DNA from: Pseudomonadota bacterium
GTDB taxonomy: Bacteria; Pseudomonadota; Gammaproteobacteria; Acidiferrobacterales; UBA6901
Length of the DNA: 64,000 nt
NCBI GenBank assembly: GCA_021790335.1
Contig: JAJYEE010000003.1
Location: 62,001-126,000 of the forward strand
Direction of reading: 5' to 3'
This document shows positions 47,669-51,358 of the stretch, piece after piece. A program made the translations under genes and the position numbers. The notes beneath the pieces are model-generated. The model did no database searches. It had not been told where the DNA came from and worked only from the letters and a program-made list of their open reading frames with translations. Each line of letters starts with the position of its first letter. Within the stretch, counting starts at the first letter, position 1.

Positions 47669-48547
47669 CTAGCCTGCCACGATCATCCCGGAGTCGAGCG
47701 CTTCCTTCATGTGGGTCAGGGCCTTCTTCTCGATCTGGCGTATGCGCTCCGCAGAGACTCCGTACTCGTGTGCCAGCTCGTGAAGCGTCGGCTTGTCGTC
47801 GTCCAGCCAGCGCCGCTGGATGATCGCACGGCTGCGCGGGTCCAGGTCGGCGAGTGCGGTCGACAATTGTTTGCCACGTTCCGTCTCCCCGGTCGATTCG
47901 GCGTACAGGCTTTCCGGGTTATAGCGCATGTCCTTGAGGTAGCCGGCAGGGGACGCATGGAACTCGTCATCCTCGGTGTCGTCGTGCGCATCGAACGGAA
48001 CGTCCGTATTCGTCATGCGCGACTCCATTTCCTTCACGGTATCCGTCGGCACGTCCAGATTGGCCGCCAGATTGTCTACCTCGTCCTGATTCATCCAGCC
48101 GATACGGTTGCGTGACTTGCGAAGATTGAAAAACAGCTTGCGCTGGGCCTTGGTGGTGGCCACTTTCACGATGCGCCAGTTGCGCAATACGAAGTCGTAG
48201 ATCTCGGCCCGGATCCAGTGGATCGCGAACGAAAGCAGCCTCACGCCATGCGCCGGATCGAAGTGCCGTACGGCCTTCATGAGGCCGATGTTGCCTTCCT
48301 GGATAAGATCCGCCTGTGGCAGGCCATAGCCGCTGAAACCGCGTGCTACCCGGACCACATAGCGAAGGTGCGAGACAACGAGCTGTCTCGCCGCATCGAG
48401 ATCACCTTCCTGATGCAGGCGCCGCGCAAGCTGACGCTCTTCTTCAGCGCTGAGCAGTGGCGCGGTATTAACCGCGCGAACATAGGCCGAAAGTCCGCCT
48501 TCGGCACTGAGATTCATTCCAATAGGTAGCGAAAGTGTCTGTGTCAT
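47669..48547 (-). CDS. rpoH: Heat-shock sigma factor RpoH (sigma-32)
   Basis: 292-aa sigma-70-family factor for heat-shock promoters. Region 2 has DLIQEGNIGLMKAVRHFDP (80-98) and IHWIRAEIYDFVLRNWR; the RpoH box QRKLFFNLRK is at 135-144; region 4 ends with the HTH TLHELAHEYGVSAERIRQIEKKA. GGGGAG precedes the ATG. Downstream of ftsYEX as in E. coli. A CIRCE element and promoter lie just upstream, so HrcA control is likely. Confidence 0.98.
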   Translation of the reverse strand: MTQTLSLPIGMNLSAEGGLSAYVRAVNTAPLLSAEEERQLARRLHQEGDLDAARQLVVSHLRYVVRVARGFSGYGLPQADLIQEGNIGLMKAVRHFDPAHGVRLLSFAIHWIRAEIYDFVLRNWRIVKVATTKAQRKLFFNLRKSRNRIGWMNQDEVDNLAANLDVPTDTVKEMESRMTNTDVPFDAHDDTEDDEFHASPAGYLKDMRYNPESLYAESTGETERGKQLSTALADLDPRSRAIIQRRWLDDDKPTLHELAHEYGVSAERIRQIEKKALTHMKEALDSGMIVAG

Positions 48548-48601
48548 GGATCAGCTCCCCAACTTCTGTAAACAAACCGCCTGGCCATCAACCGGGCTAT
48601 T

Positions 48602-48628
48602 TTAGCACTCGGGACATGAGAGTGCCAA
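48602..48628. promoter_or_regulatory. CIRCE element (HrcA operator) in front of rpoH
   Basis: TTAGCACTC - nine bases - GAGTGCCAA. The CIRCE consensus is TTAGCACTC-N9-GAGTGCTAA, so 17 of 18 arm bases match with exact spacing. It ends 54 bp from the rpoH start and overlaps a plausible minus-strand promoter (TTGGCA at 48628-48623, 18 bases, TAAAAT at 48604-48599). HrcA bound here would block rpoH transcription at normal temperature. Confidence 0.8.
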
Positions 48629-48729
48629 ACATGCTAAAAGTTCATAGAATCCTAGGCCAGTCAGGGGGGAGGCAGCCTTAATCCAGGTCAAAAATGGAGC
48701 AAAACTGAGGGAACTTGCCGGGACCTTCC

Positions 48730-49644
48730 CTATCCCGGTTCAATCGCCCGCAGATGCCGGCCGACTGCGAGCCGCGAGCCCGACCAGCCCAGGGCAGCCC
48801 CGCCCAGAAGGAGGATCGTTCCGGCTCGCAGGCCCAGGCCTGCGAGCTCGAAGTCGCTGCCATATAGGCCAGCCAGGTTACGCACCGGCCCGGCAAGCAG
48901 AGCCAGGCTGGCCGCCACCAGGATCCACGCGAGCAGGCCCCCGAACAGACCCTGAAACAGGCCGGCGTACAGGAAGGGTCTGCGGATAAACGCATCGGTG
49001 CCGCCGATCAGCTTGATGACCTCGATCTCGGAGCGGCGGCTGAGAACTGCAAGCCGGATGGTATTGCCGACGACCAGGAGGACGGCAATGCCCAGGAGCA
49101 ACGCGAGAATCAGCACCCCCCTTTGCGCCAATCGGAGTATGGCATCGAGTCTCCTCACCCATTCGAGGTCGAACTGTGCCAGCGCCACGCCCGGGAGCCT
49201 CCCGAGGGTTTGTGCCAGTTTCTGAGCCGCGCCGGCACCGGCGCCCTGATTTACCGGGCGCACGAGCAGCACAGCCGGAAGCGGGTTCGAATCGAGCAGG
49301 TCGAGGGTGTTGCCAAAACCGGACAGCCGCTTGAACTCCTTCAGGGCGGCGGTGGGGGAAATATAACGTACGTCTGCGACCCCGGGCATGGCGCGTATCT
49401 GGCCAGCCAAAGCCTGCGTCGCGGCCTGGGAGGCGCCCAATCTGAGAAACACCGATATCCGCGCACCCTCATCCCAGCCTCCGCCCACGCGTTGCAGATT
49501 GCCGAGAAGCGCGTATAGCGCCGCCGGCAGGGCCAAGGTGATGCCGATCACGGCGACGGTCATGAAGGCAGTCAGCGGTGCTCGTGCCAGTTCGCCGAGG
49601 CTGTAAAAGAACACCTGCAGGTGGCGCAGCAGATGGTTTTTCAT
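48730..49644 (-). CDS. ftsX: Cell division protein FtsX
   Basis: 304-aa membrane part of the FtsEX complex, which controls septal peptidoglycan hydrolases (EnvC in E. coli; an envC lies at 2.5-3.8 kb). One N-terminal transmembrane helix (about 25-45), a periplasmic domain, and three C-terminal helices; motif RRSEIEVIKLIGGTDAFIRRPFLYAGLFQG near 200. ATG 49644 was chosen; it overlaps the ftsE stop. Confidence 0.95.
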   Translation of the reverse strand: MKNHLLRHLQVFFYSLGELARAPLTAFMTVAVIGITLALPAALYALLGNLQRVGGGWDEGARISVFLRLGASQAATQALAGQIRAMPGVADVRYISPTAALKEFKRLSGFGNTLDLLDSNPLPAVLLVRPVNQGAGAGAAQKLAQTLGRLPGVALAQFDLEWVRRLDAILRLAQRGVLILALLLGIAVLLVVGNTIRLAVLSRRSEIEVIKLIGGTDAFIRRPFLYAGLFQGLFGGLLAWILVAASLALLAGPVRNLAGLYGSDFELAGLGLRAGTILLLGGAALGWSGSRLAVGRHLRAIEPG

Positions 49645-50315
49645 GCCGTCTGGCTCCCGCTGTCCACAATCAGTTCCCCGTCCTTCAGTGCGAGCACGCG
49701 CTTGCGCATGCGCTGGATCTGCCGCAGATCGTGGGTTGCAATCAGCACGCACACCCCATGGCGGTTGAAGTCATCGAACAGGTCTATGATCTGGTCGGCC
49801 ATGTCCGCATCCAGGTTCCCTGTGGGCTCGTCGGCCAACAGCAGGGCAGGCTTGTTTACGACCGCGCGCGCGATGCCGACGCGCTGTTGCTCGCCCCCGG
49901 ACAGTGTAATCGGGCGCATCTTTTCCTTTCCCAGCAATCCCACCTTGTCCAGCGCCGCGCGCGTGCGACGGCCTATTTCCTGGTGTGACAGACCAGCCAC
50001 CACCAGCGGAAGGGCAACATTATCGAATACGGTGCGGTCGTGCAGGAGTTTGTTGTCCTGGAAAACCACGCCTATTTCCCGCCGAAAGTAGGGAATGCGA
50101 CGGCGCGGCAGTCGCGCGACATTCTTGTTGTTCACTACAACCTGGCCACGCGAGGCATGTTCGATCAGCGTGAGAATCTTGAGCAGGGTGCTCTTGCCTG
50201 CGCCGGAATGGCCGGTGATAAAGACCAATTCCCCATCCGCGACTTCAAAACTGACGTTGCGTAGCGCGTCGAAGCCCCCGGGGTAGCGCTTGAATACGTT
50301 GCTCAGCTGAATCAT
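49641..50315 (-). CDS. ftsE: Cell division ATP-binding protein FtsE
   Basis: 224-aa ABC ATPase of FtsEX. Walker A GHSGAGKS near 35, signature LSGGEQQRVGIARA near 138, Walker B ALLLADEPTGNLD near 158, H-loop ATHD near 194. Starts MIQLSNVFKRYPGG, typical. Overlaps ftsX by 4 nt. Confidence 0.97.
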   Translation of the reverse strand: MIQLSNVFKRYPGGFDALRNVSFEVADGELVFITGHSGAGKSTLLKILTLIEHASRGQVVVNNKNVARLPRRRIPYFRREIGVVFQDNKLLHDRTVFDNVALPLVVAGLSHQEIGRRTRAALDKVGLLGKEKMRPITLSGGEQQRVGIARAVVNKPALLLADEPTGNLDADMADQIIDLFDDFNRHGVCVLIATHDLRQIQRMRKRVLALKDGELIVDSGSQTA

Positions 50316-50407: not shown

Positions 50408-51358
50408 CTACTCTACCTGGGGCAGAATTGCGTCGACGAACTGCCCGGCGTCGAATACGCGCAAATCGCCGATGTCTTCCCCGACTCCGATGAAGCGGAT
50501 AGGGATGGCGGTCTTTTCGGCCATTGCGAACAGTATGCCGCCTTTCGCGGTTCCATCCAGCTTTGTAAGACAAAGTCCGGTCACGCCCACCGCGTTGTGG
50601 AAGTGTGTCAGCTGCGCGAGCGCATTCTGACCGATGCCGGCATCGAGGACCAGCAGTACCTCATGCGGGGCGCGGGCGTCGAAGCGCCCGATGACGCGCT
50701 TGATTTTCTTGAGTTCGTCCATCAGGCCGGTCTGGGTATGCAATCGCCCGGCGGTGTCGACGATCAGCACGTCGATCGCGCGCGCCACCGCCGCCTGCAT
50801 GGCGTCGTGGGCCACGGCCGCCGCGTCGGCCCCGCCGGCCTGAGCCATGACCGGAACCCCGTTGCGGTCCCCCCAGGCCTGCAGTTGCTCGATCGCCGCG
50901 GCGCGGAAGGTATCGCCCGCCGCAAGCATCAGACTGTAGCCTTCGGAACGAAGGCGCTGTGCCAGTTTGCCGATGGTCGTTGTTTTTCCTGCCCCGTTTA
51001 CGCCTACGACCATGATTACATACGGGCGCACGTCGGGCGGAATTGCCAGCGGCTGCGCGCATGGCGCAACGATGGCAAGCATGGCGGCCCGCAACTCGGC
51101 GTACAGTTCCGCCGGCGTGTGCACCCGCGCCTCCGTGATCCGGGTGATGATGTCGCGAGTGGCTTCGATGCCGACATCAGCGCCGAGCAGCAGCGTCTCG
51201 ATGTCTTCGGCAAGATCGGCGTCCACCGAGGTGCGGCCACGAATCAAGGAGGCGAGGCGCTGGCCTAGCCCGCGGCGGGTGGCAGCCAGGCGGTCGCCGA
51301 TGCGCGCCAATATGCCGTCGCCATTCTCAGCGCGCGTGTTCTTGTTGAAAAGACCCAT
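50408..51358 (-). CDS. ftsY: Signal recognition particle receptor FtsY
   Basis: 316-aa SRP GTPase docking ribosome-SRP complexes at the membrane. G1 GVNGAGKTTTIGKLA near 117, DTAGRLHTQ near 198, TKLDGTAKGG near 258 and GEDIGDLRVFD near 293. The acidic A domain is almost absent: the N domain starts about 25 residues in, so this is a short FtsY as in many proteobacteria. First gene of ftsYEX-rpoH. Confidence 0.97.
   Translation of the reverse strand: MGLFNKNTRAENGDGILARIGDRLAATRRGLGQRLASLIRGRTSVDADLAEDIETLLLGADVGIEATRDIITRITEARVHTPAELYAELRAAMLAIVAPCAQPLAIPPDVRPYVIMVVGVNGAGKTTTIGKLAQRLRSEGYSLMLAAGDTFRAAAIEQLQAWGDRNGVPVMAQAGGADAAAVAHDAMQAAVARAIDVLIVDTAGRLHTQTGLMDELKKIKRVIGRFDARAPHEVLLVLDAGIGQNALAQLTHFHNAVGVTGLCLTKLDGTAKGGILFAMAEKTAIPIRFIGVGEDIGDLRVFDAGQFVDAILPQVE

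Follow-up and report, generated by a model that had tools for sequence, protein, structure and literature searches.

A predicted HrcA operator interleaved with sigma-70-type and sigma-E-type promoter motifs upstream of rpoH

In the usual view of proteobacterial heat-shock control, HrcA and sigma-32 are parallel systems, and in E. coli the structure of the RNA and the stability of the protein determine sigma-32. The window analysed here, i.e., the whole stretch of 64,000 nucleotides, raises the question of whether the two systems may be connected: its rpoH gene is preceded by a candidate HrcA operator, from which the initial annotation had proposed a cascade with HrcA above sigma-32. If HrcA represses rpoH and blocks a sigma-E promoter there, the HrcA and sigma-32 systems would be one circuit, and two chaperone sensors, one being GroE by way of HrcA and the other the chaperones that act on the sigma-32 protein, would converge on rpoH together with an envelope sensor.

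The gene itself is well defined. An open reading frame of 292 amino acids at 47669–48547 (minus strand) scores 386.9 bits against the RpoH model TIGR02392 (cut-off 323.1), and the domain search matched regions 1.2, 2 and 4 of Sigma70 in its product, which bears out the earlier assignment of rpoH downstream of the CIRCE element. A ribosome-binding site, GGGGAG, is present at 48560–48555. The CIRCE element, a predicted HrcA operator, occupies 48602–48628, 54 nt from the rpoH start codon, and reads TTAGCACTC-GGGACATGA-GAGTGCCAA in the window and TTGGCACTC-TCATGTCCC-GAGTGCTAA on the rpoH strand (minus). It falls under the CIRCE definition TTAGCACTC-N9-GAGTGCTAA with one mismatch, i.e., 17 of the 18 arm bases agree and the spacer is exactly N9, as first described, and it is the sole match with up to three mismatches within the window. 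A chance palindrome was considered and rejected as having practically no likelihood: nothing speaks in its favour, none of 100 dinucleotide-preserving shuffles of the window contained such a match, and the element is conserved across the order and the class with its position fixed over the core promoter, which makes an accidental palindrome very unlikely.

The remainder of the genome (3.08 Mb, 109 contigs) holds the other parts expected of an HrcA system. Three places match CIRCE with up to three mismatches, and the reversed control pattern matches none; besides rpoH, these are groES-groEL (no mismatch) and hrcA-grpE (two mismatches). The genome encodes an intact HrcA (PF01628, E 8e-65) that also matches the solved HrcA structure 1stz (E 4.5e-16), and the hrcA gene has its own CIRCE and is followed by grpE. 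Both the repressor gene, the lack of which would have spoken against the initial annotation, and the operator at groESL that it led one to look for are thus present. The geometry of CIRCE is gene-dependent (48602–48628 compared with loci L001 and L003): at rpoH it lies over the core promoter, at groES just after a TTGACA-N16-TATCAT promoter, and at hrcA close upstream of the start codon. The groESL and hrcA elements are without the sigma-70-type and sigma-E-type motifs of the rpoH site. As a separate observation, the right arm of the rpoH site is GAATGC and not GAGTGC in 17 of 17 genomes from one family of the order (L005–L021), and the groES and hrcA sites fetched from that family retain GAGTGC; the altered arm is perhaps a weaker rpoH operator.

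How the operator is placed relative to the promoter can be read directly from the rpoH strand, where the order of elements is GAACTT-N9-TTGGCACTC-TCATGTCCC-GAGTGCTAA-AAT. The left CIRCE arm contains a sigma-70-type –35 element, TTGGCA (48623–48628, minus strand), and the right arm plus three further bases form an extended –10 element, TGC-TAAAAT (48599–48607, minus strand). Together they give TTGGCA-N18-TAAAAT with an upstream TG, in which 10 of 12 bases agree with the consensus, so that the overlap of the operator with an rpoH promoter noted at the outset holds as a consensus match. Transcription would start at about 48592, as judged from the –10 element, which predicts a 5′ leader at 48548–48592 (minus strand). 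The final T of the –10 element lies three bases beyond CIRCE and is a T in 31 of 31 rpoH sites of the order (the window and 30 stored loci out of 52 order matches) and in 40 of 41 rpoH sites from named relatives. Of the comparison sites from the order, which are 40 fetched ones and the genome's own two and come mostly from one family, none of the 21 at groES and one of the 21 at hrcA has a T in this position. Since this base is outside CIRCE, the specificity of HrcA does not explain its conservation.

The arrangement is nearly constant within the order. Of 57 genomes, 52 have an RpoH that scores above the cut-off and two others (G032 and G039) give partial matches, so 54 carry rpoH. A combined pattern of CIRCE core, leader, start codon and GYGLP codons matches 52 of the 57 genomes, and one that it missed (G051) has a perfect CIRCE at rpoH, bringing the count to 53 of the 54 rpoH-bearing genomes. 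In the exception, G021 (L156), CIRCE has decayed to TTGGTACTC...GGATGGTAG and GAACTT-N16-TCAGA is kept; judged by these remnants, it is an apparent intermediate in operator loss. Among 369 genomes drawn from the class, at least 114 have CIRCE at rpoH (reversed-pattern control, 0), a lower bound because the leader range was too short by a few bases for the window's own genome, which a wider range recovers. HrcA is encoded in 268 of the 369 genomes and in 107 of the 114 with the site; the seven without an hrcA match are 62–86% complete, except for G149 (99% complete). A draw from the phylum gave matches in 12 of 398 genomes, every one in the same class, although with a strict pattern and mostly complete genomes this is no proof of absence elsewhere.

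Named relatives allow the site and its presumed repressor to be compared locus by locus. After removal of two loci with truncated upstream DNA (L099 and L107) from 80, CIRCE with up to three mismatches was found within about 400 nt upstream of rpoH at 41 of 78 loci, the carriers including Nitrosomonas, Herbaspirillum, Pandoraea, Trinickia, Polynucleobacter, Methylocaldum, Dyella and Pseudoalteromonas. With hrcA looked for in the same genomes, 38 have both CIRCE at rpoH and hrcA, 3 CIRCE alone, 9 hrcA alone and 28 neither, the last group being mostly enterobacteria, Vibrio and kin. By plain counts the association is strong and consistent with HrcA dependence; it is no proof, because the counts are not independent of descent and the independent events are too few. 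Parsimony on the RpoH tree requires seven changes for CIRCE and eight for hrcA, and only three supported independent pairs are available for the association (sign test, p = 1).

Three observations on individual named genomes may be added. Pseudoalteromonas luteoviolacea (L063) has a perfect CIRCE 72 nt before the start of the rpoH match, its relatives in the tree are without hrcA, and its own hrcA (L155, 908–1852, minus strand) is very divergent (PF01628, E 1e-11) and lies directly before grpE. In Xanthomonadaceae (L048, L087 and L045), which possess hrcA, the corresponding position upstream of rpoH is occupied by a palindrome of variant form, TTAGCAGTC-N9-(G/C)ACTGCTAA or weaker, and the specificity of HrcA may have shifted in this family. 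L084 bears a record title naming Verrucomicrobia, yet its RpoH groups with Nevskiaceae (Gammaproteobacteria), and the label is probably wrong.

The inverted repeat could in principle be kept for its part in the promoter, or because some other protein binds it, and not for HrcA, and ten sampled genomes (seven from the class and three named) that have the site and no hrcA match would fit that reading. The same 18 arm bases, however, stand at groESL and hrcA of the same genomes, and of the 31 named genomes that lack hrcA, 28 also lack the palindrome, 18 of these 28 still keeping a sigma-E-type motif. A role for the repeat unconnected with HrcA is therefore very improbable.

A second promoter type appears to pass through the left arm of the operator. 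GAACTT at 48638–48643 (minus strand; pattern match G000:C79:110605–110643) has the form of a sigma-E-type –35 element, and N16 from it TCTCA at 48617–48621 (minus strand), to which the left arm contributes its last two bases and the N9 spacer its first three, has the form of the corresponding –10 element. The resulting GAACTT-N16-TCTCA (48643–48617) fits the sigma-E rule of GAACTT, N15–17 and a TCNNA-type –10. In E. coli K-12, GAACTT-N16-TCTGA precedes rpoH with identical spacing, and we take this to be P3. The E. coli rpoH P3 promoter is described as sigma-E-dependent, with sigma-E activating rpoH (PMC8103513, PMC8745692). A matching sigma factor is encoded in the window's genome, where RpoE scores 330.4 bits against TIGR02939 (cut-off 236.15) and rpoE is followed by rseA and rseB (RseA_N and MucB_RseB domains next door).

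GAACTT at N9 or N10 from CIRCE recurs in 79 of the 369 class genomes and in none of the controls, and precedes rpoH in 78 of the 79 (at 34 of 35 fetched loci rpoH follows downstream in the same orientation, and the other 44 were assigned by overlap with rpoH hits). At the 35th fetched locus (L197, about 65–103; G128), GAACTT-N9-CIRCE precedes a different frame, ClpB-like to judge by its sequence, so that the GAACTT-CIRCE cassette can serve another gene. The third base of the N9 spacer, which forms the A of the putative –10 element, is A in 72 of the 79 class sites; the named rpoH sites have an A there in 18 of 19 cases when AAC[TC]T is upstream, versus 7 of 22 without. Within the order, AACTT is found at –14 or –15 in 24 of 31 sites, and the spacer A is present in all seven of the others. 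The motif is a frequent and not a universal part of the arrangement, given that GAACTT with strict spacing is absent from 7 of the 31 order sites and AAC[TC]T from 22 of the 41 named sites, Burkholderiales included. This putative sigma-E-type promoter and the wide spread of the arrangement, both read from sequence, are additions to what the initial annotation contained.

It may be argued that HrcA controls rpoH through the sigma-70-type promoter alone and that GAACTT/TCTNA is no working sigma-E promoter. The –10 T is kept in 22 of 22 named rpoH CIRCE sites without AAC[TC]T, which indicates that operator and sigma-70-type promoter can stand alone. We nevertheless regard an idle sigma-E motif as unlikely: at exact spacing GAACTT recurs in the class sample as described, with 78 occurrences at rpoH and none in controls; the spacer A tracks GAACTT; a sigma-E-type motif occurs in 18 of the 28 named loci that have neither hrcA nor CIRCE, compared with 0.55 expected from shuffles; and G021 retains GAACTT-N16-TCAGA in spite of its decayed CIRCE.

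The surroundings of rpoH bear on how much an operator at this place could achieve. Upstream lie a frame for ftsX (48730–49752, minus strand; its true start may be further in), then ftsE (49641–50315) and ftsY (50408–51358), all from the open reading frame list and named on the assumption that the ftsYEX-rpoH gene order applies here; ftsX adjoins rpoH in E. coli as well. Between ftsX and rpoH a terminator facing rpoH was not found, so transcripts that continue from ftsX into rpoH could circumvent the operator and may dilute its control. HrcA might accordingly bind with little effect, the level of rpoH being set by RNA structure or protein stability, or by ftsYEX read-through. Control of E. coli rpoH by RNA structure is a precedent for this, and so is the control of protein stability in E. 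coli described in PMC6032397. Against it, the rpoH leader and early coding region (193 nt) fold no better than shuffles (z –0.75), weak evidence, on folding and not on melting, that neither supports nor excludes a thermosensor; and since 53 of the 54 genomes of the order with rpoH preserve the site together with its spacing, the operator is probably under selection. We judge an operator of little consequence to be distinctly unlikely.

The reading that we prefer, and consider likely, is that an HrcA operator is built into a compound rpoH promoter and represses transcription by both sigma-70 and sigma-E in a GroE-dependent manner. The operator, hrcA, the three CIRCE sites, rpoE-rseA-rseB, and the interleaving and conservation of the elements are established at the level of sequence. 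What we infer is that HrcA binds, that it depends on GroE, that both promoters are used and that the logic is AND-like. PMC6032397 reports for other bacteria that GroE increases HrcA binding and that misfolded protein diverts GroE. At normal temperature, free GroE would keep HrcA active and HrcA would occupy the 27-bp CIRCE. It would then cover the sigma-E –10 element and the sigma-70 core promoter in full, and both polymerases should thereby be excluded, the sigma-70 enzyme at a –35 and an extended –10 element that coincide with the CIRCE arms and the sigma-E enzyme at a –10 element that spans the junction of the left arm and N9. Misfolded cytoplasmic protein would titrate GroE and cause HrcA to release the DNA, with joint derepression of groESL, hrcA-grpE and rpoH, upon which sigma-32 would raise its own regulon. 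Envelope stress, by freeing sigma-E, would add to rpoH transcription once the operator is vacant. The cascade initially proposed, with HrcA above sigma-32, gains support from the presence of hrcA, from CIRCE at groESL and from the conservation of the site, and its binding and repression steps are predictions.

A broader reading concerns the history of the site. It is possible, and we would stop short of calling it probable, that HrcA operator, sigma-E and sigma-70 elements at one 45-bp site represent the old form of rpoH control in much of the gamma- and betaproteobacteria, uniting cytoplasmic misfolding and envelope stress, and that E. coli P3 is the sigma-E half left after loss of hrcA and the operator. 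In that case, the textbook scheme of rpoH control would be a derived state. Should HrcA indeed repress rpoH through an operator that also blocks a sigma-E promoter, E. coli would not be a good model for much of its class. The site is short, its spacing is strict and it is found in culturable relatives, which makes the prediction cheap to test.

Descriptions of the compound promoter were not found in the open literature searched, nor was a paper joining rpoH, HrcA and sigma-E. The heat-shock regulons of beta-, gamma- and epsilon-proteobacteria are the subject of a study by Permina and Gelfand from 2003, and this study, as well as RegPrecise, may already list some of the rpoH sites. Among papers that contain HrcA, CIRCE and rpoH, as far as their accessible text goes, only PMC545781 puts CIRCE before rpoH; for Geobacter sulfurreducens, its Table 8 predicts a perfect CIRCE at –51 of rpoH, as well as CIRCE at groESL and hrcA, and in light of that table the placement of CIRCE ahead of rpoH is by itself no novelty. 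That prediction concerns a single genome of a deltaproteobacterium, and the accessible portion of PMC545781 mentions neither a sigma-E-type promoter through the operator nor a spread in gamma- and betaproteobacteria.

With the HrcA/CIRCE regulon of the Bacillus subtilis type, also present in H. pylori and Chlamydia, the system shares operator sequence and spacing, an hrcA gene heading grpE, and sites at groESL and hrcA; as described for H. pylori in PMC6032397, the operator lies over core promoter elements. H. pylori is without sigma-32 according to the same source, whereas here rpoH itself is a target, which would place the repressor above a second heat-shock regulator. With E. coli P3 the site shares GAACTT-N16-TCTGA in form and spacing, but there is no hrcA match in the E. 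coli control genomes and no CIRCE was seen in the 330 nt before rpoH of K-12, whereas here the motif runs into the left arm of a predicted HrcA operator. Taken together, the rpoH site interleaves a known operator with what is by its motifs a known type of promoter, and does so across many genomes at a target that has been little described.
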